Shown here: positions 6,760 through 45,169 of the stretch, piece by piece
Layout: each line of letters opens with the position of its first letter
Numbering within the stretch: the stretch's first letter is position 1
Assembly: GCF_900250075.1 (NCBI RefSeq)
Contig: NZ_LT977071.1
Coordinates: 1-64,000 of the forward strand
Source: Cupriavidus taiwanensis
Lineage (GTDB): Bacteria > Pseudomonadota > Gammaproteobacteria > Burkholderiales > Burkholderiaceae
Direction: 5' to 3'
Length of the DNA stretch: 64,000 bases
Translations under genes and position numbers: made by a program
The notes under the pieces: model-generated
The model's database searches: none
Seen by the model: the letters and a program-made list of their open reading frames with translations, nothing else
What the model was told of the DNA's origin: nothing

Positions 6760-6799
6760 CGCGGATGGCGCGCTCCGCGCTATCCGCCCCTCGAATGAC

Positions 6800-19430: not shown

Positions 19431-19535
19431 GGCCACGCCGGCGAAACAGCCGCGCCCGCCAAGAACGATAACGGCGGCAATTCCCCCTAGGGTTCCCCCT
19501 TAATTGACGCTCACCCCACTCCCCCATATATTTTT

Positions 19536-19560: not shown

Positions 19561-19585
19561 ACATCCCAACGGTCAGCTGGAAAAA

Positions 19586-22633: not shown

Positions 22634-22667
22634 CTTGTCTTTCCTGTAGCGGGGCGGCACCTTGCCG

Positions 22668-23519: not shown

Positions 23520-23621
23520 GGTCTGTCTCTGCAATATTCGGTCTTGGCGCAACGTTCTCATATATCACGCCCGCACCCGATAGGGTACCCGTATTGCGGA
23601 CAATCCCTGCCGGCCAGGCCG

Positions 23622-24837: not shown

Positions 24838-24848
24838 GGGTAGGCTCC

Positions 24849-27999: not shown

Positions 28000-28060
28000 G
28001 CCGGCCTCCTGTCTGTCGTTATCCATGGCGTGGCGCTGGACGGCGATGCGCTGGCGCCGC

Positions 28061-29150: not shown

Positions 29151-29185
29151 GTTTTATTAATGAAACGCAAGTTCAATAAAGGAAC
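29151..29185. promoter_or_regulatory. Tandem IclR-type operator before the molybdenum-hydroxylase operon
   Basis: Site I, GTTTTATTAATGAAAC (29151-29166), and site II, GTTCAATAAAGGAAC (29171-29185), start exactly 20 bp apart, 95-130 bp upstream of the Bug ATG at 29056. Both are GTT...AAC dyads with AT-rich centres. Site I differs by a single base from the site before the Rieske operon (43895). The block is strikingly AT-rich against its surroundings. IclR-family regulators commonly bind such paired dyads; the cognate proteins are probably those at 22668 and 40061. Confidence 0.65.
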
Positions 29186-29205
29186 ACAACCATCCTAGGC
29201 ACTGC

Positions 29206-29223
29206 AAGTTGACAACTCAACTT
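29206..29223. promoter_or_regulatory. AAGTTGA-CAAC-TCAACTT dyad, candidate MarR operator and promoter
   Basis: A perfect 7-bp inverted repeat with a four-base centre, containing TTGACA (29209-29214) as a likely -35 element. ACTAAT at 29233-29238 is a possible -10, 18 bp later, reading towards the MarR gene at 29379. Dyad size and promoter overlap fit MarR autorepression. The remaining part of the 322-bp gap (about 29240-29378) shows only possible secondary promoters. Confidence 0.5.
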
Positions 29224-29378
29224 ACGTTAACCACTAATTGACGGATTGTGCTTTTTGCGGATTTATTTGCGCTCATCCGGATCGCCACACGGTGGCGGCA
29301 ATGGCAAGCGCCTGTGAGACAATCTGCCCCGCCCACCGGCCACGCATCCTGGCCGGCAGACCAGACCAAGAGGAACGC

Positions 29379-29906
29379 ATGCCCCGTGATGCCGCGCCCG
29401 CCCATGGCACGCCCGCGCCCACCCCTGCCCCCGCCGCCAACGCCAGCCCGTGGACGGACCTCGACGAGGCCGGCAGCGGCCTGACCGTCGACAACTTCCT
29501 GACCACGATGCTGAGCCAGCTGGTCACCGCGCTGCGCAGCACGGTCACCAAGCCCTATGCGGAACAGTTCGGCCTGACCGTGCCCGAATGGCGCATCCTG
29601 GCGTTGCTGGCCCATGCGCGCACGCTGCCGTTTGCCGAGCTGGTGACGCAGTCGACCTCGGACAAGGCGCTGGTCAGCCGCACCCTGCGGCTGCTGGAAG
29701 ACCGCGGGCTGGTGCAGCTGACCTCCGCCGGCAATACCCCACGCAAGAAGCTGCTGTGCGCCATCACCGAGGCCGGCATCGCGCTGCACGACCAGGTGAT
29801 GCCGCTGGCGCGGCGCGGCCAGGCCGAGGTGATCCGGCAGCTGTCGCCGCAGGAGCGCGAGGCGGTGTACCAGGGACTGCGCAAGTTGTTGCGCGCCCAG
29901 GCATAA
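29379..29906 (+). CDS. MarR family transcriptional regulator
   Basis: A 175-residue MarR regulator with a proline/alanine-rich N-terminal tail of about 25 residues. The winged helix covers about 60-130, with PEWRILALLAHARTLPFAEL and the recognition helix TSDKALVSRTLRLLEDRGLV. The flanking helices form the dimer interface. The ATG at 29379 has AAGAGGAA upstream; an earlier in-frame start at 29238 would run through unrelated sequence. It is divergent from the molybdenum-hydroxylase operon, and the dyad at 29206 lies between them, so it may control itself and possibly that operon in response to an aromatic ligand. Confidence 0.9.
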   Translation: MPRDAAPAHGTPAPTPAPAANASPWTDLDEAGSGLTVDNFLTTMLSQLVTALRSTVTKPYAEQFGLTVPEWRILALLAHARTLPFAELVTQSTSDKALVSRTLRLLEDRGLVQLTSAGNTPRKKLLCAITEAGIALHDQVMPLARRGQAEVIRQLSPQEREAVYQGLRKLLRAQA

Positions 29907-29914
29907 AACGAAAG

Positions 29915-29940
29915 GGCCGCGGCGAGCGCGGCCTGTTTTC
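29915..29940 (+). terminator. Rho-independent terminator after the MarR gene
   Basis: GGCCGCG and CGCGGCC form a perfect 7-bp stem with loop GCGAG, followed by TGTTTTCC. It starts nine bases after the MarR stop. Confidence 0.75.
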
Positions 29941-30128
29941 CTTGCGCAAGACTTCTCCACGCCGGGCATGACGGCACCAGCCAGATCGCCTATAACGTCT
30001 GCTACCGGTTTCCTGTAAGGAACACCGGATCCAGGCGACGAACAGCGCGACCAACCCGCGCGGCGACGCCGATCGCCACGGCCTGGCCTGGCCAGTAGGA
30101 GAAATCACTACACACGGGAGGAGACACC

Positions 30129-31370: not shown

Positions 31371-31443
31371 GAGCGTTGATCCAGGTACCACAAGCCGCAC
31401 TGCCCATGCGCTCCTGACGGAAGCAGCACGGGCACGTGCCCGC

Positions 31444-32907
31444 TCAGACCTCCAGCTCCTCCAGCACCCGTCCCTTGGTCTCGATGCCCAGGCAATGTAC
31501 GGTGACGGCCGCCAGCGCCGGCACCACCGACAGCGCAAAGAAGGCGAAGCTCAGGTCGCCGCTGCCGATGGTGCTGGCGATCAGCCCCGGCGCGAAGATC
31601 GCCGCCAGCTTCAGCCAGGCCCCGCCGAGGCCGCAGCCCATGGCCCGCACGCTGGTCGGGTACAGCTCCGGCGTATAGACGTAGGCGGTGATGAAGCCGC
31701 TGGCGAGGAAGCCCATCGCCAGCGCGCAGAAGGTCGCGACCACGTACACGCTGGCGGCGTGGAACACGCCCGCCAGCACCAGCGACAGCGCGCACAGCAG
31801 GAACGACACATTGATCACCGGCTTGCGCCCGACCTTGTCGACAATCATGGCGCAGACCAGCGACCCCACCACGCCCAGCACCGATGCCGCGGCGGCCAGG
31901 TTCAGCGCCAGCTGCAGCGGCGCATGGTAGACGGTCTTGTAGACCGTGGGCAGCCAGGTCGACAGCCCGTACTGGATGAAGCCGCAGGTGGCCCACAGCA
32001 TCCACACCGCCATGGTGCGCCCTACGTAGGCCTTGCTGACCAGGTCCCGCACGCGGCGGCGCGGGTGCTGGGTCATGCGGTCGTAGGCGCTGGCATTCTG
32101 CGGCGGCGGCAGCGGTCCTTTGGCGCGCGCCTCGAACGCGCGCAGCGCGGCGTCGGCTTCTTCCAGGCGGCCCTTCTCGGCCAGCCAGCGTGGCGATTCG
32201 GGGATCACGCGCTTCAGGAGGAAGAACAGCACCAGCGGCACGCCGCCGATGAAGTACATGACCTCCCAGCCATAGTGCGGCACCAGCCAGGCACCAACGC
32301 CGTTGGATACCATCAGGCCGATCGGGAACACCACCTCGTACAACAGCACGAAGCGCCCGCGGCCGTGCGCGCGCGTGACTTCGTTGATATAGGTGGCGGC
32401 CACCGGCAGTTCGCCGCCAAGGCCCAGGCCCTGCACGATGCGCAGCAGCAGGAAGATCTCGAACGACGGCGCGAAGCCACAGGCAATGCTCATCAGGCCG
32501 ATGATGCCCGCGCTCCAGCCGATCGAGCGCAAGCGGCCGAAGCGCTCGGCCAGCCCGGGGAACAGCAGCGCACCGACCAGCTGGCCGACCGAGGGCGCCG
32601 CGATCAGGACGCCGATCTGCGCCGGCGTCAGCGACCATTGCGCGATCAGCAGCGGCAGCGTGGCGGCGATGGCGATGACGTCGAAGCCATCGAAGAAGGT
32701 GGCCAGGCCGATCAGCAGCCGGGCGCGGACATGCATGGCGTTGCCCGGCATGCGCTCGATGCGGGCGACGATATTGCCGCGCGTGACCGGGCCGCTGCGG
32801 GCGGTGGCCGCGGCGCCCTGGCCGGCACTGTCGGCCGTGGTCACGATACCTGCGGTGGCGGCCACCGGTGCGCCGGGGGACGCTGCGTCTTGTCTCTGGG
32901 TTAGCAC
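31444..32907 (-). CDS. MFS transporter, aromatic acid:H+ symporter (AAHS) family
   Basis: A 487-residue twelve-helix permease. The first transmembrane segment contains LLIGLATFFDGFDVIAIAATLP with the DGFD motif of AAHS transporters such as PcaK and BenK. The loop 2-3 motif GALLFPGLAERFGR follows, and RIVQGLGLGGELPVAATYINE is in helix 4. It would import an aromatic or related acid with protons. The reading frame has only a GTG at 32907 with no clear ribosome site; a start nearer residue 40-55 is possible. It is the last gene of the ring-oxidation operon, separated from the reductase gene by 235 bp of repeat sequence. Confidence 0.88.
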   Translation of the reverse strand: MLTQRQDAASPGAPVAATAGIVTTADSAGQGAAATARSGPVTRGNIVARIERMPGNAMHVRARLLIGLATFFDGFDVIAIAATLPLLIAQWSLTPAQIGVLIAAPSVGQLVGALLFPGLAERFGRLRSIGWSAGIIGLMSIACGFAPSFEIFLLLRIVQGLGLGGELPVAATYINEVTRAHGRGRFVLLYEVVFPIGLMVSNGVGAWLVPHYGWEVMYFIGGVPLVLFFLLKRVIPESPRWLAEKGRLEEADAALRAFEARAKGPLPPPQNASAYDRMTQHPRRRVRDLVSKAYVGRTMAVWMLWATCGFIQYGLSTWLPTVYKTVYHAPLQLALNLAAAASVLGVVGSLVCAMIVDKVGRKPVINVSFLLCALSLVLAGVFHAASVYVVATFCALAMGFLASGFITAYVYTPELYPTSVRAMGCGLGGAWLKLAAIFAPGLIASTIGSGDLSFAFFALSVVPALAAVTVHCLGIETKGRVLEELEV

Positions 32908-32940
32908 GGGTATTTTTTGGGTTGGGTCTTTCGAATGGCT

Positions 32941-33109
32941 CCCCTCTCCCGCTTGCGGGAGAGGGGTTGGGGGAGAGGGCAGGCGCTTGCAGGCGGCAGA
33001 TGCCTGGCTTGCACGGCGGCCTTGGTGAGGAAGTCGGGACTTGGCAGCGTGCTGGCTGCGGCCAGCGCTGGCCCTCTCCCCCGCCCCTCTCCCGCTTGCG
33101 GGAGAGGGG
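32941..33109. repeat. Pair of inverted palindromic repeats (REPIN-like)
   Basis: Two near-perfect 26-bp palindromes (CCCCTCTCCCGC-TT-GCGGGAGAGGGG) lie at 32941-32966 and 33084-33109. Each has a GGGGGAGAGGGC or GCCCTCTCCCCC flank on its inner side, so the two units are inverted with respect to each other. This doublet arrangement resembles REP doublets (REPINs). It fills the gap between the reductase and MFS genes and may act as a transcript-stabilising or partial stop structure. No REP-associated transposase is seen nearby. Confidence 0.65.
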
Positions 33110-33142
33110 AGAAAACACTCGCGGAACGAGCAGACCGCAGGA

Positions 33143-34099
33143 TTACAAATCCAGCACCAGCTTGCTGCCCTTGCAACCGGACACGCACACCATCATGGTC
33201 TTGTTGCTGGCGCGCTCGCTGTTGCTCAGCACGCTGTCGCGGTGGTCCGGGCAGCCTTCCAGCACCGCGGTCTCGCACGAGCCGCACACGCCTTCGCGGC
33301 AGCTGTACTCGACCTCCACGCCGGAGTCGAGCAGCGCATCGAGCAGCGACTTGCCAGACGGCACCTTGACCAGCGAGCCGGTGCGCGACAGTTGCACCAC
33401 GTATTCGCCTTCCTGCACCGCCTCGGTCGACGGATCGGCGGCAAAGCGCTCGATATGGACGTTGGGGTAGGCATGCGCCTCGCACGCGGCTTCGAACGCA
33501 TTCAGCATCGGGCCCGGGCCGCAGCAATAGAAGTGCGTCTGCGCATCCTGTCCGCCAAGCATTGCCTTCAGGTCCGGCGGCGCGCCCGCTTCGTCGTCGA
33601 AGTGGAAGCGCACCGCGTCGCCATAGGCCGACAGCGGTTCGACGAATGCCGCCTCGGCGCGCGAACGCGCGCAGTAGATCAGCGTGAACGACTTGCCCAG
33701 CTCGGCCAGCCGGCGCGCCATGCAGACGATCGGCGTGACGCCGATGCCGCCGGCGACCAGCACCGTATGCGCTGCGCTCTCGTCCAGCTCGAAGTTGTTG
33801 CGCGGCGCGCCCACCGTCAGCGTGGTGCCCACGCGCAGCTGCTCATGCACGTAGCGCGAGCCGCCGCGGCTGCCGCGGTCCAGCAGCACGCCCACGGTGT
33901 AGCGGTTGCGCGCTTCCGGCGCGCCGCACAGCGAGTAGCTGCGCACCAGGCCGTTACCCAGGTGCAGGTCGATATGGGCGCCCGGGCTGTACTCGGGCAG
34001 GGGCTTCCCTTCGGGGTCTTGCAGTTCGATGCTGACCACGCCGCGCGCTTCAAAACGCATGGCCTGGACGCGCAGGGTCAGGGACTGGTGGGCACTCAT
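33143..34099 (-). CDS. PDR/VanB family oxidoreductase (reductase of a Rieske oxygenase)
   Basis: A 318-residue reductase with the phthalate dioxygenase reductase layout. The flavin-binding barrel contains RSYSLCGAPEARNRY (about residue 53). The NAD-binding domain has VLVAGGIGVTPIVCMARRL (about 113) and HFYCCGPGPML. The C-terminal plant-type 2Fe-2S domain has C267, C272, C275 and C305. It would feed electrons from NAD(P)H to the Rieske oxygenase encoded at the head of the same operon. The start has GAAGGAA upstream. The other reductases in the window lack this architecture. Confidence 0.94.
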   Translation of the reverse strand: MSAHQSLTLRVQAMRFEARGVVSIELQDPEGKPLPEYSPGAHIDLHLGNGLVRSYSLCGAPEARNRYTVGVLLDRGSRGGSRYVHEQLRVGTTLTVGAPRNNFELDESAAHTVLVAGGIGVTPIVCMARRLAELGKSFTLIYCARSRAEAAFVEPLSAYGDAVRFHFDDEAGAPPDLKAMLGGQDAQTHFYCCGPGPMLNAFEAACEAHAYPNVHIERFAADPSTEAVQEGEYVVQLSRTGSLVKVPSGKSLLDALLDSGVEVEYSCREGVCGSCETAVLEGCPDHRDSVLSNSERASNKTMMVCVSGCKGSKLVLDL

Positions 34100-34115
34100 T
34101 GCTGCTTCCTTCGTT

Positions 34116-34207
34116 CGTCGTTCCCGCGCAGGCGGGAACCCAGTGACTTTGCTTTTCGCCAGCGTTTCAAAGACGCTGGGCTCCCGCCTTCGCGGGAGCG
34201 ACGGTGG
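34116..34207. repeat. Intergenic palindromic repeat, copy 1
   Basis: A 92-bp element with two hairpins (GTTCCCGCGCAGGCGGGAAC, then a later CTCCCGCCTTCGCGGGAG) separated by CCAGTG and AGACGCTGG segments. It fills the gap between the extradiol enzyme and reductase genes. Related copies are at 41529 and 48115. Confidence 0.75.
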
Positions 34208-34213
34208 TTATGC

Positions 34214-35188
34214 TTACCGCTTCTCGGTCAGGAACTTGCCTGCCGGGCCGCCGGCGTTCTTCTGGCGGCGGGTGTTGCCGTCGATGCCGCCCTCGATCGC
34301 CCATTCGGCGAACATGGTCGGCCCCGGCTCGAAGGCGCGCGCCTCCCAGTGTTCGTCGAGCTGGTCTTCATCGGCGTAGTACTCGATCAGGCCGCCGGCC
34401 GGGTTCTTGAAGTACCAGAAGTAGGCCGAGGAAATCGGGTGCCGGCCCGGGCCGAGCTGCGTGTCCCAGCCCTTGCGCGAGACGTGCATGCCGCCGCCGA
34501 ACACCTCATGGATATCGCGCACGGTGAAGGCGACGTGGTTCAGGCCGCTCTTCGGTTCCGGCAGCTGCAGCAGGAACAGGTCGTGGTGGCCGCCGTCCGT
34601 GGTGCAGCGCAGGAACGCGCCGCGGTCCGGGTAGCGGTCGGACGGCACGAAGCCGAACTTCTCCACATAGAACTGCTCGGTGGCCTTGACGTCCTTCACG
34701 AAGAACACCACGTGGCCCACTTCGATCGGCGTGGCGTGGTCGTAGATCGGGCTGCGCTGGTTCATGCGCGGCTTGTCGTTCCACGTATTCATCAGCGCGC
34801 ATTCGACCTGCACGTCATGCTTGCGCGTGACCTGGAAACGCACCGCCAGGCCATTCGGGTCGGTGCAGCCGATGCGCAGCGCGGCGCCTTCGCCTTGCTT
34901 CACAAAGCCCGGCGCATCGGCGATCGCGTCAGCCAGATGGTCGAGCGATGCCTGCGACTCGACCCCCCACACCACTTCGCGCAGCGTCGGGCCGGCCTCG
35001 ATCGCGGGCGGCAGCGACGGATCATCGATGCGGCGCACCAGCACGCGGCAGCCGTTCAGCGTTTCGAAGTCCAGGCCCTGCGCGTCATCGCGCTTGATGG
35101 CCAGGCCCCAGTCGGTGAAAAAGCCACGGCAGGCGTCAAAGTCATCCGCGCCGTAGACGATCTCGTCGATTCCCAATACCTTGATCAT
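34214..35188 (-). CDS. VOC family protein, type I extradiol ring-cleavage dioxygenase-like
   Basis: A 324-residue two-domain vicinal oxygen chelate protein. The C-terminal domain carries the expected iron ligands H159 (EVGHVVFF), H218 (GLNHVAF) and E269 (GGLIEYY). Active-site histidines are plausible at H201/H202 (GGHHDLF) and H250 (GPGRHPISSAYF), the latter in the same context as in BphC-type enzymes. It would cleave a catechol-like ring meta to the hydroxyls, consistent with a Rieske oxygenase and dehydrogenases in the same operon. The N-terminal domain is degenerate, as in the class. The start at 35188 follows AGGAGAG; the upstream open frame is chance. Confidence 0.87.
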   Translation of the reverse strand: MIKVLGIDEIVYGADDFDACRGFFTDWGLAIKRDDAQGLDFETLNGCRVLVRRIDDPSLPPAIEAGPTLREVVWGVESQASLDHLADAIADAPGFVKQGEGAALRIGCTDPNGLAVRFQVTRKHDVQVECALMNTWNDKPRMNQRSPIYDHATPIEVGHVVFFVKDVKATEQFYVEKFGFVPSDRYPDRGAFLRCTTDGGHHDLFLLQLPEPKSGLNHVAFTVRDIHEVFGGGMHVSRKGWDTQLGPGRHPISSAYFWYFKNPAGGLIEYYADEDQLDEHWEARAFEPGPTMFAEWAIEGGIDGNTRRQKNAGGPAGKFLTEKR

Positions 35189-35211
35189 TGCTTCTCTCCT
35201 GCGTGCCGGGT

Positions 35212-36690
35212 TCAGTGGCTGGCCCACGGCAGCGGTTGTTCGTTCAGGCCCCAGTACACGCTTTTCTGCTCCATGTACTGCAGGATGCCCAGCCGTCCCT
35301 TCTCGCGGCCCAGGCCGCTGTCGCGCCAGCCGCCGAAGGGCGTCGAGATCGAGAACTGCTTGTAGGTGTTGATCCACACGTTGCCCGCCTGCACCGCACG
35401 GGCCACGCGCCAGGCGCGCTTGTAGTCGCGCGTCCAGATGCCGGCGGCCAGCGCGTAGACGCTGTCGTTGGCCTGTTCGATCAGGTCGTCCTCGTCGTCG
35501 AACGGGATCGCCACCAGCACCGGCCCGAAGATCTCTTCCTGGCAGATGCGGGCGTTGTTATCCAGGCCTTCGATGATGGTGGGCGTGTAGAAGTAGCCGT
35601 TGGGCAGGCCGGCCACGTCGGGACGCACGCCGCCGGTGCGCAGCTGGCCGCCTTCGTGCACGCCGGTCGCGACGTAGGACTCGATGCTGTCGCGATGGCG
35701 GTCGGTGATCAGCGGGCCCATCTGGGTACGTTCGTCGGCGGGATCGCCCACGCGCAGGTGCGCGGCACCGGCGGCCAGGCGGTCGATAAAGGCCTCGTAC
35801 TGCGAACGGGCGACGAACAGGCGCGAGCCGGCGATGCACGACTCGCCCGACGAGCTGAAGATGCCGTACAGCACGCCGTTGACCGCATGGTCGAGGTCGG
35901 CATCGTCGAACACCATGGTCGGCGACTTGCCGCCCAGTTCCAGCGACACCGGCATCATCTTGTCGGCGGCGATATGGGCGATGTGCTTGCCGGTGGTGGT
36001 GCCGCCGGTGAACGACACGCGGCGCACCAGCGGATGCTTGGTGATGGCGTCGCCGATCACCGAGCCCTTGCCCGGCAGCACGCTGATCAGTCCCTTGGGC
36101 ACGCCGGCTTCTTCGCAGATGCGCGCCAGTTCCAGTGCCATCAGCGGCGTGACTTCGGCGGGCTTGACCACCACGGCATTGCCGGCGGCCAGCGCGGGCG
36201 CCATCTTCTGCGCCTCGCTGGCGATCGGCGAATTCCAAGGCGTGATCGCCGCGACCACGCCCATCGGCTCGTAGACGCTCATGGTCAGGCAGTCGCCGCG
36301 CTGCGGCGTGATGGTTTCCTCCAGCGTTTCGCAGGCGGCGGCAAAGAACTGGAAGGTGCCGGCGGCACTGGCGACCAGCGCGCGCGTTTCGCTGATGGGC
36401 TTGCCGTTATCCAGGCGCTGGCGCTGTGCCAGCGGCTCGGCTTGTGCGCGGATCAGTTCGGCCACGCGGTACAGCACGGCGGCGCGCTCGTGCGGCTTGC
36501 GCTGGGCCCAGCCGCTGGTGAGGAAGGCATGGTGGGCGCCCTGCACGGCCTCTTCCACGTCAGCCAGGCTGGCGGCGTTGAGTTCGGCCACCACTTCGCC
36601 GGTGGCCGGGTAGCGGGTGCCGTAGCGGTCGCCGGTCCCCAGGCGCCATTCGCCCGCGATGCAGATGGGGAGTACTTCTTGCGTCTTCAT
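35212..36690 (-). CDS. NAD(P)-dependent aldehyde dehydrogenase
   Basis: A 492-residue aldehyde dehydrogenase. The cofactor region includes ITPWNSP (about 149) and FTGGTTTGK (about 227), with general base E251 in LELGGKSP and nucleophile C285 in SGESCIAGS. Overall pattern is that of 5-carboxymethyl-2-hydroxymuconate semialdehyde or betaine aldehyde-type enzymes. After extradiol cleavage an aldehyde group must often be oxidised, and this enzyme could do that. It follows the aspartate dehydrogenase gene by 40 bp and precedes the extradiol gene by 23 bp. Exact substrate is unknown. Confidence 0.93.
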   Translation of the reverse strand: MKTQEVLPICIAGEWRLGTGDRYGTRYPATGEVVAELNAASLADVEEAVQGAHHAFLTSGWAQRKPHERAAVLYRVAELIRAQAEPLAQRQRLDNGKPISETRALVASAAGTFQFFAAACETLEETITPQRGDCLTMSVYEPMGVVAAITPWNSPIASEAQKMAPALAAGNAVVVKPAEVTPLMALELARICEEAGVPKGLISVLPGKGSVIGDAITKHPLVRRVSFTGGTTTGKHIAHIAADKMMPVSLELGGKSPTMVFDDADLDHAVNGVLYGIFSSSGESCIAGSRLFVARSQYEAFIDRLAAGAAHLRVGDPADERTQMGPLITDRHRDSIESYVATGVHEGGQLRTGGVRPDVAGLPNGYFYTPTIIEGLDNNARICQEEIFGPVLVAIPFDDEDDLIEQANDSVYALAAGIWTRDYKRAWRVARAVQAGNVWINTYKQFSISTPFGGWRDSGLGREKGRLGILQYMEQKSVYWGLNEQPLPWASH

Positions 36691-36730
36691 TGTCGTTGCC
36701 TGCTAAGTCTGTGGGGCCTGGCTGCCGGGG

Positions 36731-37531: not shown

Positions 37532-37543
37532 TGCGGCTCTCCC

Positions 37544-39259
37544 TCAGGCGGTGACAGTGGTTTGTTCGCGGGCCGGCTCTTCGTTGTCCTTGTTCACCGG
37601 GGGGCCGGCGAAGATGGTCTTGAAGGAACCGATCGACAGCATGTCGATTTCCAGCAGGAACGGGCCGGATTCGGCCTTGGCCGCCTCGAGCGCGGCACCG
37701 ACCTCGGCCAGGTTGCTGACGCGCGCGTGGCGCAGCGACAGCGACTTCGCCAGCGTGGCGTAGTCCGGCGTATGCAGGTCCACATAGTGGCGGCGGCCGC
37801 CGTATTGCGCGTCCTGGATGTTCTTGATGACGCCGTAGCCCTTGTCGTTCATCAGCACGATGACCATGTCGGCGCGCTCCTGCACCGCCGTGGCCAGCTC
37901 GCCCAGGTTCAGGATGAAGCCACCGTCGCCGGCCAGCGTGAAGGTCTTCTTGCCCGAAGCCGTGGCCGCGGCGCCGATCGCGGCGCCGATGCCCATCGCC
38001 AGGCCCTGGCCGATGCCGCCGCCCAGCGCATGCACGCCGGCGCGGGAGTCGAAGATGCGCAGCTGGCGGTTGCCCCAGGTGCTGTTCGACACGGTCACGT
38101 CGCGCACCCAGTTGAAGTTGCGGCCGACCGCGCCCTGCAGCGCCTGCACCAGCGCCGAGTACGGGCCCAGGCCATCAACCAGGCTGTTGACCGCGGTGTC
38201 GTGCGCGCGGCGCAGGTCGGCGGCGAAGGCCGGGTCGATCTGCATGCGCTGTTCGAGCCGATCCGCCAGCGCATCCAGCGCCAGCGCGGCGTCGCCGCTG
38301 ACAAAGTAGTCGCTCATATAGCAGCGGCCTTCGGCGGCGGGATCGGCGTCGATGCGCAGCAGCGGGCGCGGCAGCTTCAGTTCGTATTTCAGGGTTTCAT
38401 TGCCGCGCAGGCGCGAGCCCACCACCAGCATCGCGTCGCAGGTCTGGTAGAAGGCCTCGACCGGCTTGTGCAGGTTGAACGCGCCCAGCGAGCGCGGATC
38501 GTCCTCCGGCACGATGCCGCGGCCTTGGGTGCTGGTGACCACGCCGAAGCCCAGGTCCAGCAGGCGCTGCACCTGCTTGCTGGCATGGCGCGCGCCGCCG
38601 CCCAGCCACAGCAGCGGGCGCTTCGCCTTCACCAGGCGCTCGGCCAGCGCGTCCAGCGCGTGCGCGGACGGCACGTGCTGCGGCACCGGCAGCGGCTGCA
38701 GGTCGGCCGGCAGGTCGATCAGCGCGGCCTGGATGTCGATGGGGATCTCCACGCTGACCGGGCCGGTCGGCGCGGTCAGCGCGGTCTGCACCGCCAGCTT
38801 GATGGTGCTGATGGCGGTGTCGGCGCTGCGGATGCGGAAGGCGGCCTTGGACACGGCTTTCAGCATGGTGAGCTGGTCCGGCGCTTCGTGGATGTAGGCG
38901 AGGCTCTGGTCCAGGTAAGGCGTTTCGATCTGGCCGGTGATGTGCAGCATCGGCGTGCCGGCGGTCAGCGCTTCGACCATGGCGCCGGCGGCGTTGCCGG
39001 CGGCGGTGCCGGTGCTGGTCAGGCACACGCCCAGGCCGCCGGTGGTGCGGGCGTAGGCGTCGGCCATATTGGTGCCGCCCGCTTCGCCGCGCGCCGGCAC
39101 GAAGCGGATCTTGCCGCGCTCGCCCATGGCGTCGAGGATCGGCATGTTGTGGATCGAGATCACGCCGAAGGCGGCCTTGACGCCGCACTGCTCGAGAAAC
39201 GCCGTGATGGCGCAGCCGACGGTGACCTGCTGTTGTTCGTACTGGTGTTGATTAGGCAT
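37544..39259 (-). CDS. Thiamine diphosphate-dependent enzyme (acetolactate synthase-like)
   Basis: A 571-residue ThDP enzyme with the three domains of the POX/acetolactate synthase family. The catalytic glutamate lies in ARGEAGGTNMADAYAR (about residue 58). The C-terminal ThDP/Mg motif is AGDGGFILNLGELATAV then MNDKGYG (about 450-480). FAD-binding residues cannot be judged. Such enzymes decarboxylate 2-oxo acids or make carbon-carbon bonds. The start at 39259 overlaps the SDR stop by 8 bp; the longer open frame to 39373 lies within the SDR gene. It is followed by aspartate dehydrogenase 12 bp later. Function in the operon is unknown. Confidence 0.87.
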   Translation of the reverse strand: MPNQHQYEQQQVTVGCAITAFLEQCGVKAAFGVISIHNMPILDAMGERGKIRFVPARGEAGGTNMADAYARTTGGLGVCLTSTGTAAGNAAGAMVEALTAGTPMLHITGQIETPYLDQSLAYIHEAPDQLTMLKAVSKAAFRIRSADTAISTIKLAVQTALTAPTGPVSVEIPIDIQAALIDLPADLQPLPVPQHVPSAHALDALAERLVKAKRPLLWLGGGARHASKQVQRLLDLGFGVVTSTQGRGIVPEDDPRSLGAFNLHKPVEAFYQTCDAMLVVGSRLRGNETLKYELKLPRPLLRIDADPAAEGRCYMSDYFVSGDAALALDALADRLEQRMQIDPAFAADLRRAHDTAVNSLVDGLGPYSALVQALQGAVGRNFNWVRDVTVSNSTWGNRQLRIFDSRAGVHALGGGIGQGLAMGIGAAIGAAATASGKKTFTLAGDGGFILNLGELATAVQERADMVIVLMNDKGYGVIKNIQDAQYGGRRHYVDLHTPDYATLAKSLSLRHARVSNLAEVGAALEAAKAESGPFLLEIDMLSIGSFKTIFAGPPVNKDNEEPAREQTTVTA

Positions 39260-40055
39260 GACGGGAGTGTCCTCCGGAGATATCGATATGGCTGCCCGTG
39301 GTGTACGAAGACAACGGCGAGGCAAGGAACAGGATGGCGCGGGCTGCCTCGACGGGCAGGCCCAGGCGGCCAAGGGGAATATGTTTCTGCCGGGCCAGGC
39401 GCGCGGTCCACGCGGCCCAGTCCAGGTGGCGGTCTTCCTCGGGGCGCGCGTCGAAGCGGCGACGCCACTGGCCCGATTCGACCAGCCCGATCAGGATGCC
39501 GTTGACGCGGACACCTTTGGGCGCGAACTCGGTGGCCATCGAGCGCACCAGGTTCAGCACGCCGGCGCGCGCGGCGGAAGTCGCCACCATGTGCGGCTCC
39601 GGCTGCTGCGCCAGCAGCGAGTTGACGCAGACGATGGCGCCCTGGCCCGACTTCTCCAGTTGCGGCAGGAACGCGCGCGTCGGGTGGATCACCGAGAAGA
39701 ACTTGAGCTGCAGTTCGTCCATCCAGGCCGCGTCTTCGGTATTGGCGAAGGTGGACACGCGGCCCTGGCCGGCGTTGTTGACCAGCATGTCGACGTTGCC
39801 GAGCTTCTGCTGCACGTCGGCCGCGAAGGCGGCAACCTGTTCCGGCTTGAGCACGTCGCAGCTGGCGGCATAAAGCCGGCAGCCGGCGAATTTCTCGCGC
39901 AGCTGCGCTTCGGCGCTGCGCAGGCGGGCTTCGTCGCGGCCGCACATGGCGACGGCGGCGCCCGCTTCGAGCAGCAGCTCGACGGTCGCCAGCCCGATGC
40001 CGGAGGACCCGCCGGTGACGACGGCAACCTTGCCGCCGAGTTCAATCATGGACAT
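39252..40055 (-). CDS. Short-chain dehydrogenase/reductase (SDR)
   Basis: A 267-residue classical SDR. The cofactor motif VAVVTGGSSGIGLATVELL is at about residues 9-27, and MLVNNAGQGRVS lies near 90. The catalytic position reads CVNSLLAQQPEPHMVATSAARAG, so the usual tyrosine of the Ser-Tyr-Lys set is histidine or absent: after the Ser, the YxxxK motif is replaced by MVATSAARAG. This is unusual and could make the enzyme atypical or inactive. The start at 40055 (MSMIELGG) follows GAGGACA, five bases after the IclR stop. It is in the ring-oxidation operon. Confidence 0.85.
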   Translation of the reverse strand: MSMIELGGKVAVVTGGSSGIGLATVELLLEAGAAVAMCGRDEARLRSAEAQLREKFAGCRLYAASCDVLKPEQVAAFAADVQQKLGNVDMLVNNAGQGRVSTFANTEDAAWMDELQLKFFSVIHPTRAFLPQLEKSGQGAIVCVNSLLAQQPEPHMVATSAARAGVLNLVRSMATEFAPKGVRVNGILIGLVESGQWRRRFDARPEEDRHLDWAAWTARLARQKHIPLGRLGLPVEAARAILFLASPLSSYTTGSHIDISGGHSRHA

Positions 40056-40060
40056 TGTCC

Positions 40061-40912
40061 TCACTCCCGATACAGATTCACGACCTTGCCGGCGCTGTGC
40101 AGCGACGGCCGGTAGTCGAGCAGGCGCGACAGCTCGCCCGCGGTGCTTCTCACCTTCTCCACCATCGCGTCCAGCTGTTCCGGATCGATATGCGCGGCGG
40201 GGATGGTGGCGCCCAGCGCCGCCACCACCTTGCCGGTGCGGTCGCGCACCGGCGCCGCGATGGTCGAGATGCTCGATTCGAAAAAGCCTTCCTGCAGCAC
40301 GTAGCCGCGCTCGCGGTCGCGCTGGACGATGGCGAAGAGCGCATCGGCGGTGCGCGGCGTGCTGTCGGAGAACACTTCGAGCTGCGCCTCCGGATACAGC
40401 GCGCGCAGCTCCGCCAGCGACAGGTCTTCCAGCAGCACGCGCCCCAGCACGGTGGCATGCGCGGGCAGCCGCGTGCCGACGTTGACCGAACTGGCGAAGG
40501 GCCGCGGCGACATCGCCTTGGCCACGTAGACGATCGAGCGCCCGTCGCGCACCACCAGGTTGGTCGGGTAGCCGATCTCGTCGCGCAGCCGCTCCAGCAG
40601 CGGGCGGCCCAGTTCGGTCAACTCCAGCGACGCCAGGTACTCGAACCCGAGCCGCAGCACCGCCATGCCCAGCCGGAAATCCCGCCCGCCATCGGCGCGC
40701 TCGACAAAGCCCAGCATTTCCAGCGTGGTCAGCAGGCGGAACACGGTGGAGCGCGGCACCTTGAGGCGGCGCGCCAGTTCCGCGGCCGACATGGTGCGGT
40801 CCTTGCTGCTGAACTCGCCGAGCAGGCGCAGTCCGCGCTCGAGGCCCGGGACGATGTACTTGTCCGGGGTCTCGTTGGCGGCGGGCGTCGTCGGGATGGC
40901 GTTGGTGCTCAT
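40061..40912 (-). CDS. IclR family transcriptional regulator (PcaR/PobR-like), paralogue of 22668-23519
   Basis: A 283-residue IclR protein with YIVPGLERGLRLLGEFSSKD leading into the winged helix, and the recognition helix KVPRSTVFRLLTTLEMLGFVE. The effector domain has SSVNVGTRLPAHATVLGRVL and SISTIAAPVRDRTGKVVAAL. It is about 80 percent identical by eye to the IclR protein in the molybdenum-hydroxylase operon, with virtually the same DNA-binding domain. It differs mainly in the first 15 residues and the C-terminal tail (HSAGKVVNLYRE). It lies between cupin and SDR genes in the ring-oxidation operon, so both regulators are probably co-expressed with the pathways they control. Confidence 0.93.
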   Translation of the reverse strand: MSTNAIPTTPAANETPDKYIVPGLERGLRLLGEFSSKDRTMSAAELARRLKVPRSTVFRLLTTLEMLGFVERADGGRDFRLGMAVLRLGFEYLASLELTELGRPLLERLRDEIGYPTNLVVRDGRSIVYVAKAMSPRPFASSVNVGTRLPAHATVLGRVLLEDLSLAELRALYPEAQLEVFSDSTPRTADALFAIVQRDRERGYVLQEGFFESSISTIAAPVRDRTGKVVAALGATIPAAHIDPEQLDAMVEKVRSTAGELSRLLDYRPSLHSAGKVVNLYRE

Positions 40913-40943
40913 GGTCAGTGCGTGTGGACGGGCCGATGGCGCA

Positions 40944-41480
40944 TCAGCGCTTGATCTTCGTCAGCGGATGCTCGGGCGGGTAGGTCGGCGTGATCGGCTT
41001 CTTGGCGCCGAGCATCACGCACATCAGCGCGTCTTCCTCGCCGATATTGATTTCCTCGCGGTACACGCCCGGCGGCACCGAGACCAGGTCGCGGTCGGTC
41101 AGGATGGTCTCGAAGCGCTCGCCATCCTTTTCAAGAATCAGCTTGATCTTGCCGCGCAGGATGAAGAACACCTCTTCCACGTCGGTGTGCAGGTGCGACG
41201 GGCCTTCATGGCCGGCCGGGATGATCATGGTGGAGAAGGTGAAGTGCTCCGACGGCACGGTGTTGGTGTCCGCGGCCACGCCGGTGCCGCCGGTGCCCAG
41301 GTAGCGCATCTGCGCGCGGCGGTACTTGGGGTCGTAGTCGGCCTGGAACTTCAGCGCGTCCCAGTCGTACTTGCGCGTGGAGAAGCGCGCCACCCGGCTT
41401 TCCATCCACTGGTCGAACGAGGCGCCGTCCGGCTGGTCCCAGGAACGCTTGATGTTTTGCTGTTGGGAAAGATCGCTCAT
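40944..41480 (-). CDS. Cupin domain-containing protein
   Basis: A 178-residue single-cupin protein. The metal-binding motif 1 is PAGHEGPSHLHTDVEEVFFILRG, with H96, H98 and E102/E103 as candidate ligands. The second motif region reads VSVPPGVYREEINIGEEDALM, where the usual histidine is missing, so metal binding may use fewer ligands. Cupins in aromatic operons are often dioxygenases, decarboxylases or small-molecule sensors; here no direct activity can be assigned. It is followed by the IclR gene after 31 bp, and preceded by a 162-bp gap holding repeat copy 2. Confidence 0.85.
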   Translation of the reverse strand: MSDLSQQQNIKRSWDQPDGASFDQWMESRVARFSTRKYDWDALKFQADYDPKYRRAQMRYLGTGGTGVAADTNTVPSEHFTFSTMIIPAGHEGPSHLHTDVEEVFFILRGKIKLILEKDGERFETILTDRDLVSVPPGVYREEINIGEEDALMCVMLGAKKPITPTYPPEHPLTKIKR

Positions 41481-41528
41481 TTGGATTCCTTCGATTGAAT
41501 GTTTTCGGAATTCACGACGCCGCCCGCA

Positions 41529-41605
41529 CGTCGTCGTCCCCGCGCACGCGGGGACCCAGTGTCGTTAAAGACGCTGGATTCCCGCCTGCGCGGGAATGAC
41601 GGTGG
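41529..41605. repeat. Intergenic palindromic repeat, copy 2
   Basis: A 77-bp element with hairpins GTCCCCGCGCACGCGGGGAC and ATTCCCGCCTGCGCGGGAAT, separated by CCAGTG and AGACGCTGG as in the other copies. It lies between the cupin and SDR genes of the ring-oxidation operon. Confidence 0.75.
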
Positions 41606-41642
41606 TGTGCGAGTGTGGTCATGAAATAAGAAACGCCCTGAA

Positions 41643-42416
41643 TCAATGCATGACGAAGCCGCCGTTGACCGCCAGCGTCTGCCCGGTCACGAACCGGGCG
41701 AGGTCAGACAGCGCGAACAGCACCGCGCCGCAGACGTCCTCAGGCAGTTGCTCGCGCGAGATCGCGCGTTGCTCGCGGTACAGGTCGTGCCGGTGCTGGG
41801 GCACGTACTCGGTGGCTTCGACCAGCGTCAGGCCCGGCGCCACGGCGTTGACCGTGATCTGGTCGCGGCCCAGCTCGCGTGCCAGCGAACGGGTCATGCC
41901 GATGATGGCGCTCTTGCTGGCCACGTAGGCGAGCAGGTTGGGCGCGCCCCACAGCGGCGTGTCAGAGGCCAGGTTGACCACCGCGCCACGGCCGCTGGCG
42001 CGCAGCGCCGGCAGGCAGGCGGCAGTCATCAGCCAGGTGCCCCGCACGTTGACGTTCATCACGCGGTCCCAGGTGGCAATGTCGATGGCGCTGGCGTCGC
42101 GGCCGCCGGAGTCGGTCACGGCAGCGTTGTTGACCAGGCCGTCGAGGCCGCCCAGTGCCTTCACCGCGGCGTCGGCGCAAGCCTGCACCGAGGCGGGATC
42201 CGACAGGTCCAGCGTGACCGGCACCACCTTCAGGCCGCGGGCGCGCAGTGCGTCGGCCTCCTGCTGCAGGCGTTCGGCCAGGATATCGGCCATGGCCACG
42301 CTGGCGCCGGCTTCGGCCAGCGACCGGGCGAAGGCCAGGCCCAGGCCGCGCGCGGCGCCGGTGACCAGCACCTTGCGGCCCGCCAGCAGCGGGTTGTGCT
42401 TGATGGCTTCAGGCAT
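41643..42416 (-). CDS. Short-chain dehydrogenase/reductase (candidate dihydrodiol dehydrogenase)
   Basis: A 257-residue SDR with the TGAARGLGLAFARSLAEAG cofactor motif (about residue 19), LVNNAAVTDSGG (about 91), NLASDTPLWGAPNLLAYVASKSA (about 145-170, with S, Y and K of the catalytic set), and a canonical C-terminus TLAVNGGFVMH. It overlaps the Rieske oxygenase gene by 8 bp. In Rieske pathways an SDR of this kind oxidises the cis-dihydrodiol to the catechol, so that role is plausible, but related SDRs also act on ketones and alcohols. Confidence 0.9.
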   Translation of the reverse strand: MPEAIKHNPLLAGRKVLVTGAARGLGLAFARSLAEAGASVAMADILAERLQQEADALRARGLKVVPVTLDLSDPASVQACADAAVKALGGLDGLVNNAAVTDSGGRDASAIDIATWDRVMNVNVRGTWLMTAACLPALRASGRGAVVNLASDTPLWGAPNLLAYVASKSAIIGMTRSLARELGRDQITVNAVAPGLTLVEATEYVPQHRHDLYREQRAISREQLPEDVCGAVLFALSDLARFVTGQTLAVNGGFVMH

Positions 42417-43470
42417 GGCTGGCGGCTCCGGCGGGCTTCAGCATGGCAACCGGCTCGTCGGCGACTTCCTGCTCGGCGCGGCGCTTGAGCAGGCGGCGCA
42501 CGCGGGTGATGCCGGCGTCGTGCTGGTACAGCATCTCGTGGTCGCGGGCGTTCGGGGCCATCATTTCCAGCACCACGCGGTCCTGCTCCAGCACGTCCCA
42601 GTGCAGCTGCTCCAGGCGGTTGCGATACAGGAAGCGCCACACGTCGCGTTCCCAGCCCTGCACCTGGCGGGTACGCCAGAAGAACACCATGCAGTGGTCT
42701 TCATCCACCGGCGTGGCCATGCCGACGATGCCGAACGGGCCGCCGGGGCCGACCTTGGCGCGGTACGGGATCGCCAGGCGCAGCCACAGCGTGCCGGTCT
42801 CGCCGAATTCCACCCAGTCGAAGTTGACGCCGCGCTGGCCGGTCTTCTCGAACACCAGGCCATGCTCGGTCTCGCGGATCTGCATCACGGCGGACTTCTC
42901 GCCGGAGGCCATCGAGTGCGACACCGCGTGCAGGTAGGCGCCGTGCATCGGGTCCATCACGTTGTCGATGGCATAGCGGTAGTTGCAGTCCCAGTGCGCC
43001 ACGCACAGGAAGTTGCTGTGTTCCTCGCTGACCAGTTCTTCCGGCAGGCGCAGTTCGTCGGGACTGCCCTCGCCTTGCGGGGCCTGGTCGCCGAACCACA
43101 GGAAGATCGCGCCGGCCCTTTCCTGCACCGGATAGCTGCGCACGCAGGTGCGGCCTTCCAGCGGGCAGCTTTCCACCGCCGGCACGCTCTTGACCCGGCC
43201 GTCGCCGCCGACTTCCACGCCGTGGTACCAGCAGGCGACGCGGTCGCCCAGATTCCAGCCCATCGACAGGCGCGCGCCGCGGTGCGGGCAGCGGTCTTCG
43301 AGCGCGTGGACCTGGCCGGCGCCATCGCGCCACAGCACGATGTTCTGGCTCAGGCGGGTGATGCCGATCGGGGCATGGGACACGGCCCACGAGGCGGCGA
43401 CGGGGTACCAGTAGTTGCGCAGGCCGGTGTTGAGGCGGGCTTCGGCGCGGGCTTGCTTGTTCGATTCCAT
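42409..43470 (-). CDS. Aromatic ring-hydroxylating Rieske oxygenase, alpha subunit
   Basis: A 353-residue oxygenase of the phthalate/vanillate-O-demethylase class. The Rieske 2Fe-2S site is C61-P-H63 and C80-W-Y-H83 (CXH-X16-CXXH). The mononuclear iron facial triad begins in NVMDPMHGAYLH with D173, H176 and H181. The C-terminal fold matches single-subunit oxygenases that lack a separate beta subunit, and none is present here. It takes electrons from the reductase encoded at 33143-34099 in the same operon. It is preceded by a 101-residue protein gene 39 bp upstream. The ring or methyl group attacked is not known. Confidence 0.94.
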   Translation of the reverse strand: MESNKQARAEARLNTGLRNYWYPVAASWAVSHAPIGITRLSQNIVLWRDGAGQVHALEDRCPHRGARLSMGWNLGDRVACWYHGVEVGGDGRVKSVPAVESCPLEGRTCVRSYPVQERAGAIFLWFGDQAPQGEGSPDELRLPEELVSEEHSNFLCVAHWDCNYRYAIDNVMDPMHGAYLHAVSHSMASGEKSAVMQIRETEHGLVFEKTGQRGVNFDWVEFGETGTLWLRLAIPYRAKVGPGGPFGIVGMATPVDEDHCMVFFWRTRQVQGWERDVWRFLYRNRLEQLHWDVLEQDRVVLEMMAPNARDHEMLYQHDAGITRVRRLLKRRAEQEVADEPVAMLKPAGAASHA

Positions 43471-43509
43471 GTGGTTCTCGCTTAGACGCTGTGCTGGGGC
43501 GGCGGGGGC

Positions 43510-43815
43510 TCAGGCGCCCAGGCGGCGCATTTCCGACAGGAAGCGCTCTTCGGTCCAGGGCTGGCTGTCGACGGTCAGGAAGCCGGCGGCGTTGCACGCG
43601 CGCACGATGTCCTGCGGGTTCTGCGCGCCGCCCTCGAAGGCAGCTTCGAGCGCGTCGCCCAGCGCGTTCTCATAAGCGCTCGGGGCGCTGGCGCGGGTCT
43701 GCCAGACGATGTTGGCGACCTTGCCGGGTCGCTCGATATGGCCCTTGCCCGCCACGTTGTTCGGCGCCGGACGCTCCCAGGGCACCAGGTTCGGGTTGTA
43801 CGAGAGGCTTTCCAT
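43510..43815 (-). CDS. Small helper protein, recombinase-like helix-turn-helix family (tentative)
   Basis: A 101-residue protein starting MESLSYNPNLVPWERPAPNN at 43815, with GGAG nine bases upstream. A longer start at 43830 lacks a ribosome site. The end WTEERFLSEMRRLGA and the middle YENALGDALEAAFEGGAQNPQDIV resemble small proteins annotated as recombinase-like HTH that commonly lie immediately before Rieske oxygenase genes. This comes from memory and is not verified. It is the first gene of the twelve-gene ring-oxidation operon. DNA binding, subunit or adaptor roles are all possible. Confidence 0.65.
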   Translation of the reverse strand: MESLSYNPNLVPWERPAPNNVAGKGHIERPGKVANIVWQTRASAPSAYENALGDALEAAFEGGAQNPQDIVRACNAAGFLTVDSQPWTEERFLSEMRRLGA

Positions 43816-43894
43816 TGCGCTTGGCTCCATGTCTTGCAGCTGGGGGACCGTGTTCCGCGTGCGTGGTCGGCCGGTCTGCTGGCTGCCGCGCTAC

Positions 43895-43929
43895 GTTTTA
43901 CTAATGAAACACTGGTTTAGATATTGAAC
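43895..43929. promoter_or_regulatory. Tandem IclR-type operator before the Rieske operon
   Basis: Site I, GTTTTACTAATGAAAC (43895-43910), and site II, GTTTAGATATTGAAC (43915-43929), start exactly 20 bp apart, 80-115 bp upstream of the small protein ATG at 43815. The overall block is nearly the same as at 29151 (site I differs by one base, and both end GAACACA). The remaining part of the 251-bp gap, 43945-44066, is very GC-rich, with a hairpin (GGCGGCGC...GCGCCGCC) and no gene. Confidence 0.65.
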
Positions 43930-44066
43930 ACAGGTACGACTATAGACAACGACGGCCTAAAAATTGACTGGGGTTAACCCGCGACCGGGCAGATTGCCCG
44001 GCGGCGCGGCGCAAGCGAGGCGCCGCCAAGGCGGGACGCGGCGACAGGACGCCGCAGGGCGAGGAG

Positions 44067-44945
44067 TTACTGGCCGGCCGGCAGGGCCGAACGGATCAGC
44101 CGCGCCGTGGCGGCGGCCTGGTCGATATAGCAGGCGTGCCCGGCATCCGGGATCAGCGAGAACGGCAGGTCGAAGCGTTCTGCCAGCGCCGCGCAGGCGG
44201 GCGGCGTGGTGACGATATCGCGGCCGCCGCAGGCGATCTGCGTCGGCAGCCGGTCGGGGCGCCGCGCCAGGTAGGCATCGATGTCGTCGCCGCACAGCAT
44301 CGCCACCGCCTGGCGATAGCCGTCCGGGTTCAGCCGCCGCATGTTCCAGCGCACCCAGGCCTGCGCGCCCGCATCGGCCGCTTCGCTGAGCAGCCGGGCC
44401 GGGCCCCGCTGCGCCAGCCCGTCGACGCCCAGCGACGCCAGCGCCTCCAGGCGCTGGCTTGCCACCGCGCTGGCCTGCGCCTCCTTGCCAGGCGCGCCGT
44501 AGCCTTGCGCCACGCTCAGCAGCAGCAGGCGATCTGGTAGCGCGCGCGCGGTGGCGGCATAGGCGGCCGCCATCAGCGCACCCAGCGAATGCCCGACTAC
44601 CAGCGCCGGCTGCACGCCGAGCGCCGCCAGCAGGCCCTCGAGCCGCCGCGCATAGTCCGCGGCCAGCGGCCGGGCCTGCGCCAGCGGCGAGGAATCGCCG
44701 TAGCCCGGCGCGTCCCATGCGATCACGCGCGCATGCGCGGCGAGCAGGCTGGCGCAGGGCAGCCACGACGCCGCCCCGGAGCTGATGCCATGCAGCAGCA
44801 CCACCACCGGACCGGAGCCGCCGCCGCAGCGGTAGGCCACGCGCGCGCCATCCACCTGCGCCACGCGCTGGGCAAAGCCGCTGTCCAGGGCGTCCAGCAC
44901 GCCACGGTCCGGTTCGGCATGCGTCTGACGCTGATTTTGTTCCAT
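44067..44945 (-). CDS. Alpha/beta hydrolase
   Basis: A protein of up to 292 residues with the alpha/beta hydrolase fold. VVVLLHGISSGAASW holds the oxyanion hole, WDAPGYGDSSPL follows, the nucleophile elbow is VGHSLGALMAA (Ser), and the C-terminal catalytic histidine is in IPDAGHACYID. Members include meta-cleavage product hydrolases, fitting the nearby extradiol enzyme, but esterase or lactonase activity is also possible. The start is uncertain. The ATG at 44945 lies inside the shared 16-bp operator and has no ribosome site; a GTG at 44900 would put the operator 39-73 bp upstream, a more usual position, and still leaves a complete fold. Confidence 0.82.
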   Translation of the reverse strand: MEQNQRQTHAEPDRGVLDALDSGFAQRVAQVDGARVAYRCGGGSGPVVVLLHGISSGAASWLPCASLLAAHARVIAWDAPGYGDSSPLAQARPLAADYARRLEGLLAALGVQPALVVGHSLGALMAAAYAATARALPDRLLLLSVAQGYGAPGKEAQASAVASQRLEALASLGVDGLAQRGPARLLSEAADAGAQAWVRWNMRRLNPDGYRQAVAMLCGDDIDAYLARRPDRLPTQIACGGRDIVTTPPACAALAERFDLPFSLIPDAGHACYIDQAAATARLIRSALPAGQ

Positions 44946-44973
44946 ATATAAAACTGTAGTTGGCAAATAAAAC
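44939..44973. promoter_or_regulatory. Tandem IclR-type operator before the hydrolase gene
   Basis: Site I, GTTCCATATATAAAAC (44939-44954), is identical base for base to the porin site at 45154. On the other strand it reads GTTTTATATATGGAAC, aligned with the GTTTTA...TGAAAC sites at 29151 and 43895. Site II, GTTGGCAAATAAAAC (44959-44973), begins exactly 20 bp after it. Geometry relative to the gene (site I nearer, site II further) is the same in all three tandem cases. Confidence 0.6.
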
Positions 44974-45153
44974 CCTCTAAGCATAGGCGCTGCGCAAGCG
45001 CTACCGGGATCAGGGTTAACGATAGGCCTGCCTCCAAACGGCGTCGGCACGCCAACCGGCGCCGTCCGGGCCCGCCGCTTTAGGGATAACCCTCCTCACA
45101 TGTTCCGGAAAGTCACGGCTATATTTTGCCAAACGTTTCTTATGTTGTTTGAC

Positions 45154-45169
45154 GTTCCATATATAAAAC
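45154..45169. promoter_or_regulatory. IclR-type operator site before the porin gene
   Basis: GTTCCATATATAAAAC, an exact repeat of the sequence at 44939 and in the same orientation. It lies 99-115 bp before the porin ATG. Where a second site would be expected 20 bp upstream only one half (GTTTC at 45135) is present. The rest of the 323-bp gap between hydrolase and porin genes holds AT-rich promoter-like sequence and no gene. Confidence 0.6.

Follow-up and report, generated by a model that had tools for sequence, protein, structure and literature searches.

We analysed four regulatory elements in the window, that is, the first 64,000 nucleotides of a 2.78-Mb contig from the 6.77-Mb genome of Cupriavidus taiwanensis. 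Very probably, these elements are operators of two closely related IclR-family proteins, denoted here IclR1 and IclR2, which would repress the promoters of a molybdenum (Mo)-hydroxylase unit, a Rieske oxygenase operon, a hydrolase gene and a porin gene until a pathway compound releases them. A single IclR regulon for these four units had been proposed in an initial annotation of the window, and the proposal is supported by the conservation of the sites, by the coincidence of regulator and site across genomes (48 of 48 genomes with a close IclR gene vs 1 of 12 without), and by sites located directly before the IclR2 gene, from which we infer binding of the IclR proteins.

Four tandem operators

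A scan of the window finds 16-bp dyads at 29151, 43895, 44939 and 45154, in agreement with the positions and strands reported in the initial annotation, and direct reading likewise shows no difference between the copies at 44939 and 45154. The dyad motif has six matches in the window, two of which are opposite-strand readings of two near-palindromic sites, compared to a mean of 0.02 and a maximum of 1 in 100 dinucleotide shuffles. Read in the direction of the gene, all four sites share the same architecture, GTT-N9-AAC (15 bp), 4 bp and GTT-N10-AAC (16 bp), with the two dyad centres 19.5 bp apart. The 15-bp partner had been claimed for three of the four sites, and is indeed found at 29171, 43915 and 44959, where the tandems are perfect, but the porin site has an in-register partner as well, so the tandem arrangement extends to every one of the four. 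The porin tandem keeps the left half and the register of the distal dyad without its AAC, the right half of this partner (GTTTCTTATGTTGTT, 45135-45149) having decayed, and a like shape is seen in relatives. The start codon of the hydrolase gene lies within the proximal dyad; the first 60 codons are stop-free in 28 of 28 sequences, and inspection by eye reveals no obvious ribosome-binding site at this gene.

The pattern used to scan the whole genome for tandems was built from the window sites themselves, and hence the result shows absence of such tandems elsewhere rather than providing independent support. With at most 2 mismatches allowed, the pattern matches six places, namely the four window sites (0, 0, 0 and 1 mismatches) and two poor matches with 2 mismatches each, whereas the backwards pattern that served as the control matches none. 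Single dyads occur at 12 further places in the genome, 11 of which (not L017) were viewed in context; those in L011, L014, L015, L016, L021 and L022 overlap an open reading frame (ORF), and those in L012, L013, L020, L023 and L024 are clear of ORFs. These single dyads were dropped as candidate members of the regulon, none of them appearing as a tandem in the whole-genome scan.

Conservation of the operators in related loci

The sites were compared across 80 loci with a related Rieske oxygenase, which include 28 Cupriavidus-type, 11 Ralstonia-type and 41 remaining, more distant loci. The 39 Rieske promoters that were counted are those of the Cupriavidus- and Ralstonia-type loci, except for L050 where the contig begins at the first gene, plus that of the window. 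For the Mo-hydroxylase unit, 60 genomes from the genus, including the own one, were considered; 33 of them have an orthologue of the TTT receptor, and 30 of these were fetched as loci; extended ORFs were used as the starts of the Mo-subunit genes. The TPP-enzyme query used across the relatives was an out-of-frame translation that marks position only, whereas the family search employed the right frame.

The Rieske tandem is present in all 39 promoters with at most 2 mismatches in the 12 edge positions (34 have none), the hydrolase tandem in 28 of 28 sequences within the same limit, and the proximal porin 16-mer has perfect edges in 28 of 28. Among the 30 Mo-unit loci, own included, the tandem is perfect in 23 and within 2 mismatches in 29, the last one having 3. 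On average, the half-site edges are conserved at 95-98% and the 4-bp spacers at 45-56%; conservation of the flank 5-55 bp downstream is 76% for the Mo unit, 37% for Rieske and 55% for hydrolase. The operator footprint is accordingly clearest at the Rieske promoter, where the flank is the least conserved. The far-upstream control of the hydrolase alignment reaches 96%, but over few columns, which cover the GTTAACCC box discussed below. According to the initial annotation, a common regulon would be refuted if close relatives had lost the dyads upstream of the orthologous operons; the dyads are kept before all four units.

The position of the hydrolase gene differs among these loci. In the 11 Ralstonia-type loci and in a further genome of the genus (G016, L200), as well as in the Burkholderia-type loci with a detected hydrolase (not L062), the gene is located inside the Rieske operon, between the cupin and IclR genes, and in the 27 Cupriavidus-type loci that were counted it precedes the operon and has an operator copy to itself. 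The hydrolase gene would, in this view, have left the operon yet stayed under the same site.

Among the 41 distant loci, an exact-edged 16-mer scoring at least 11 bits is found in 33, against a mean of 3.5 and a maximum of 7 in 20 shuffles (the shuffles of both the promoter and the distant locus sets preserve base composition only), although a few of these matches, for example in L063 and L068, are probably due to chance. No such 16-mer is present in L062, L069, L083, L085, L091, L092, L094 and L096, and near-miss forms are seen in L083, L091, L092 and L094. The tandem geometry can be recognized in Zobellella, Ignatzschineria and some alphaproteobacterial loci, and related gene sets that carry the site are found among Beta-, Gamma- and Alphaproteobacteria. 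In the Kluyvera loci L098 and L101 (8987-9320), two further dyad-like elements are located upstream of the main site, which suggests a larger regulatory region.

The IclR proteins and their link to the sites

Both IclR1 and IclR2 belong to the IclR family, with an N-terminal HTH_IclR domain and a C-terminal IclR_C domain scoring over the cut-off. As originally described, each of the two catabolic units encodes such a protein, but "nearly identical" overstates their similarity, which amounts to 80% identity overall and 89% over 64 residues of the helix-turn-helix domain. They are each other's only close paralogues, the best of the 32 other IclR-type proteins in the genome being 33% identical.

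In the survey of the 60 genomes, in which a close IclR was defined by E <= 1e-85 and a tandem site by at most 1 mismatch, at least one tandem site is present in every one of the 48 genomes with a close IclR and in 1 of the 12 without (Fisher p 3.5e-11). The exception, G027, has a single palindromic place; other stray matches away from the cluster are G019:C3 and G041:C25, and the backwards control gives one match across all 60 genomes. Stronger evidence than this co-occurrence comes from the position of the site before IclR2. The counts of tandem sites per genome are complete, and the places were taken from those listed. Fifteen IclR-bearing genomes lack an orthologue of the Mo-unit receptor; one of these (G016) has one IclR, and three (G047, G048 and G054) have no places among those listed, leaving 11 genomes for this comparison. 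In 8 of the 11, a tandem site is located within 150 bp before IclR2, either read in the sequence 114-135 bp before the estimated IclR2 start (G001, G028, G045 and G053) or placed by coordinates (G008, G029, G031 and G037). The promoter in the four genomes that were read resembles that of the Mo unit, so it seems that one promoter drives either the Mo genes plus IclR2 or IclR2 alone. G041 (L202) retains, by eye, a CoxG-like end before IclR2, and thus the Mo genes have probably been lost there. A tandem site directly before IclR2 implies that this gene would be autoregulated.

A residue of the recognition helix of the IclR proteins co-varies with the operator, as counted over the top-scoring site of each locus. 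When the helix starts with Ser (PRSTVFR or similar), 48 of 49 loci lack C/G at operator positions 4/13 and the remaining locus has one; when it starts with Thr, both are C/G in 17 of 20 loci and one in 3 (L063, L068 and L090). In other words, Ser goes with GTTT, and Thr with GTTC...GAAC. The lower-scoring hydrolase and porin sites of Cupriavidus also have one C or G half.

Promoter layout and the probable mode of control

At all four promoters, the tandem follows a predicted -10 box. For the Rieske operon, the gap between the two is 9 bp in 37 and 8 bp in 2 of the 39 promoters; for the hydrolase gene, it is 6 bp in the 26 of 28 sequences that fit the searched pattern (L045 and L046 did not fit); and for the Mo unit, it is 6-10 bp in 30 of 30, with weak hexamers. 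The porin TATATT is present in 28 of 28 sequences, with a gap of 9 bp in 23 and 10 bp in 5. In several of 29 distant sites (Zobellella, Ignatzschineria, Glaciimonas and others), the tandem comes directly after a TTGACA-type promoter. Given that the tandem begins 6-10 bp after the -10-like box, a bound protein would block the polymerase, making repression the likeliest mode. The arrangement of 15-bp and 16-bp dyads separated by 4 bp, with centres 19.5 bp apart, suggests two dimers (a tetramer) on one face of the DNA. The region covered by such a complex would extend over the predicted start of transcription and the ~35 bases that come first, which at the hydrolase gene include the start codon. 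The IclR proteins would thereby repress the four promoters and, via the operon promoters, their own synthesis, and a pathway compound would release the repressor.

Alternative explanations

That the IclR proteins bind the sites as activators, not repressors, appears unlikely. PcaU and PobR act as activators, and the best-scoring NCBIfam model for IclR1 is that of PcaR/PcaU/PobR (TIGR02431), even if its score of 179 bits is below the cut-off of 284.75; furthermore, no good -35 is seen by eye at the promoters of the Rieske operon, the hydrolase gene and the porin gene. An activator is, however, not expected downstream of a -10-like box, where the tandem is located at all four promoters, or downstream of the full TTGACA-type promoters of several distant relatives. 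Still less probable is the binding of the dyads by a different regulator, encoded either elsewhere or within the cluster, where the candidates are the small HTH_62 protein encoded by the first gene of the Rieske operon and the MarR protein encoded divergently from the Mo unit. The dyad sequence and tandem spacing fit IclR operators as described in the survey of Suvorova and Gelfand (2021, PMC8222616), the Mo-unit promoter carries a separate palindrome that fits MarR in 30 of 30 loci, and in several genomes the tandem is found directly before IclR2. The probability that the elements reflect chance AT-rich similarity or a recent duplication of intergenic DNA is negligible. Two 16-mers only ~200 bp apart are identical, but chance is excluded by the shuffles and the whole-genome scan, and duplication is contradicted by conservation, the spacers being different and the half-site edges being kept throughout the genus and beyond.

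Several points weigh against repression by IclR1 and IclR2 or dilute the evidence for it. The promoters and start sites are predictions, and the family includes activators (PMC8222616). Because the IclR gene sits in the gene cluster, co-occurrence does not tell the regulator apart from the cluster as a whole, and in 3 of the 11 genomes (G009, G012 and G041) no site was found before IclR2. With a downstream flank that is 76% conserved, the footprint at the Mo unit is weak when taken alone. The Ser/Thr counts are inflated by kinship and reduce to roughly two independent changes, one in the Burkholderia group and one in L090.

Regulated units and further promoter elements

The features of the four units are listed in Table 1. 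The first gene of the Rieske operon (43510-43830) encodes the HTH_62 protein (PF20552; 106 aa), which accompanies the oxygenase in most related loci. The nearest solved relative of the Rieske oxygenase is dicamba O-demethylase (weak, 6e-23), that of the Mo subunit is 4-hydroxybenzoyl-CoA reductase, and that of the VOC protein is an entry named only glyoxalase/bleomycin resistance protein/dioxygenase; these relatives do not point to a substrate. Searches of one open-access literature library returned no account of this cluster, regulon or substrate.

Table 1. Operators, predicted promoter elements, transcription units and regulator genes in the window
Feature	Position	Strand	Details
Tandem operator, TTT-receptor/Mo-hydroxylase/IclR2 unit	29151-29185	-	GTTCCTTTATTGAAC-TTGC-GTTTCATTAATAAAAC
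Tandem operator, Rieske operon	43895-43929	-	GTTCAATATCTAAAC-CAGT-GTTTCATTAGTAAAAC
Tandem operator, hydrolase gene	44939-44973	-	GTTTTATTTGCCAAC-TACA-GTTTTATATATGGAAC; includes ATG (44943-44945)
Tandem operator, porin gene	45135-45169	+	GTTTCTTATGTTGTT-TGAC-GTTCCATATATAAAAC
Predicted -10, Mo unit	29192-29197	-	TAGGAT, weak match; 6 bp upstream of operator
Predicted -35, Mo unit	29215-29220	-	TTGAGT
Predicted -10, Rieske	43939-43944	-	TATAGT; 9 bp upstream of operator
Predicted -10, hydrolase	44980-44985	-	TATGCT; 6 bp upstream of operator
Predicted -10, porin	45120-45125	+	TATATT; 9 bp upstream of operator
Palindrome over Mo-unit -35	29206-29223		AAGTTGACAACTCAACTT; core in 30/30 loci
GGGTTAACCC box	43971-43980		26 bp upstream of Rieske -10
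GTTAACCC box, half-degenerate	45013-45020	-	27 bp upstream of hydrolase -10
GGGATAACCC box	45083-45092		27 bp upstream of porin -10
Unit 1	21620-29056	-	TTT receptor, Mo-hydroxylase large, FAD and Fe-S subunits, CoxG-like, IclR2, second TTT receptor; one transcript assumed
Unit 2	31444-43830	-	Small HTH_62 protein, Rieske oxygenase, SDR, cupin, IclR1, SDR, TPP enzyme, aspartate dehydrogenase, ALDH, extradiol-type VOC, reductase, MFS; one transcript assumed
Unit 3	44067-44945	-	Alpha/beta hydrolase
Unit 4	45269-46372	+	Gram-negative porin
IclR1	40061-40912	-	Within Rieske operon; probable repressor; HTH_IclR and IclR_C over cut-off; IclR-family hidden Markov models
IclR2	22668-23519	-	Distal part of Mo-hydroxylase unit; probable repressor; HTH_IclR and IclR_C over cut-off
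MarR gene	29379-29906	+	Divergent from Mo unit; MarR domain over cut-off

A second shared element, the GGG-N4-CCC box or its half form, precedes three of the four -10 boxes and is not clear in the Mo unit, the promoter of which instead has a TTGAGT -35 beneath the MarR-like palindrome. The palindrome AAGTTGACAACTCAACTT is probably the site of the divergently encoded MarR protein, which would provide a second control of the Mo-unit promoter. In G016, the box, the -10 and the tandem are found ahead of a different type of Mo-hydroxylase, with a 2Fe-2S protein and a molybdopterin-domain protein (L200 ~1045-3805), and also ahead of an operon for an ABC transporter, with an ATPase and an NMT1-like binding protein (L203 ~6040-8054), which is located ~70 kb from the main cluster. 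The box as a general promoter element is not clearly supported: with 2 mismatches, there are 23 matches vs 26 in the backwards control. Over the 60 genomes, 146 matches are found vs 109 in the control, an excess that is partly due to the promoters of the regulon. Perfect boxes with TATA number 3 vs 0 in the control, which is few, and only one of them lies within this regulon. In the accessible part of the text of PMC6449761, GGGTTA and AACCC do not occur.

It is conceivable, if rather doubtful, that the regulon represents a promoter module that is portable and takes two inputs, in which a GGG-N4-CCC box ~27 bp before the -10 would be read by an activator in place of a -35 and the tandem after the -10 would serve as an IclR roadblock. 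Across genomes, such a module might have been placed ahead of various entry enzymes (two dissimilar Mo-hydroxylases) and various transporters, all feeding one widespread pathway of ring cleavage, the substrate of which may be an N-containing aromatic compound.

Another GGG-N4-CCC box or half form is present at 19490-19499, 26-27 bp before a -10-like hexamer. Three GTTCA/TGAAC boxes (TGAACATTCAGTTCATTTTTGAACA, 19537-19561) just after a TATATT precede a FAD monooxygenase-like gene (19586), after which comes a third IclR gene of distant sequence (IclR_C at 21076-21594, + strand). This arrangement resembles an IclR site with three boxes that belongs to a different regulon.

Implications

The present analysis joins the Mo-hydroxylase, the Rieske/extradiol-type pathway, the hydrolase and the porin in one predicted pathway under one inducer. 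With a single inducer for all units, compound screening on a reporter could find it. A single result would also allow many genomes to be annotated, given the related gene sets in Beta-, Gamma- and Alphaproteobacteria. The pairing of Ser or Thr with GTTT or GTTC provides a testable rule for DNA recognition by IclR proteins.

Comparison with known IclR systems

The initial annotation had likened the dyads to KdgR boxes. The half-site letters GTTTC/GAAAC are indeed in common, but the likeness does not hold because the order of the KdgR half-sites is the opposite (GAAAC-N3-GTTTC; Table 1 of PMC8222616), an order that, in our reading, fits the group 2 consensus of that survey. The curated KdgR model scores IclR1 at 108 bits vs a cut-off of 275. 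TtgV, which controls efflux, is an IclR-family protein of distant sequence that matches IclR1 at 1.5e-10 (structures 2xrn and 2xro). It is cited for dimer/tetramer asymmetry (PMC8222616). The PcaR/PcaU/PobR family, to which the best-scoring model for IclR1 belongs, controls aromatic catabolism. Unlike in this family, the operator position here suggests repression, and the PcaU and PobR motifs have GTTCG/GTCCG cores, unlike the present sites (PMC8222616).

The operators of IclR group 1 in the survey of Suvorova and Gelfand have the same half-site order as the present sites, GTTYC...GRAAC, with an AT-rich centre. Tandem sites are found in 94 of the 181 IclR groups, the palindromes being commonly 18-22 bp apart, centre to centre, and the 19.5 bp at all four window sites falls within this range for group 1. 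IclR proteins show a known peak of sites with centres between -3 and +1 relative to the start codon, which is matched by the hydrolase dyad over the ATG. The GTT subgroup of the survey has 11 bp between GTT and AAC (17 bp), and differs from the present sites, where the distances are 10 bp (16 bp, proximal) and 9 bp (15 bp, distal), in a fixed and conserved order. The regulog of this regulon may already figure among the 181 groups. This kind of switch is known, and the regulon is a well-supported, deeply conserved further case of it, as judged from sequence comparison; the new points are that the sites form four tandems, that their position probably suits a repressor, that an operator precedes IclR2, that one operator contains a start codon and that a second box is shared.

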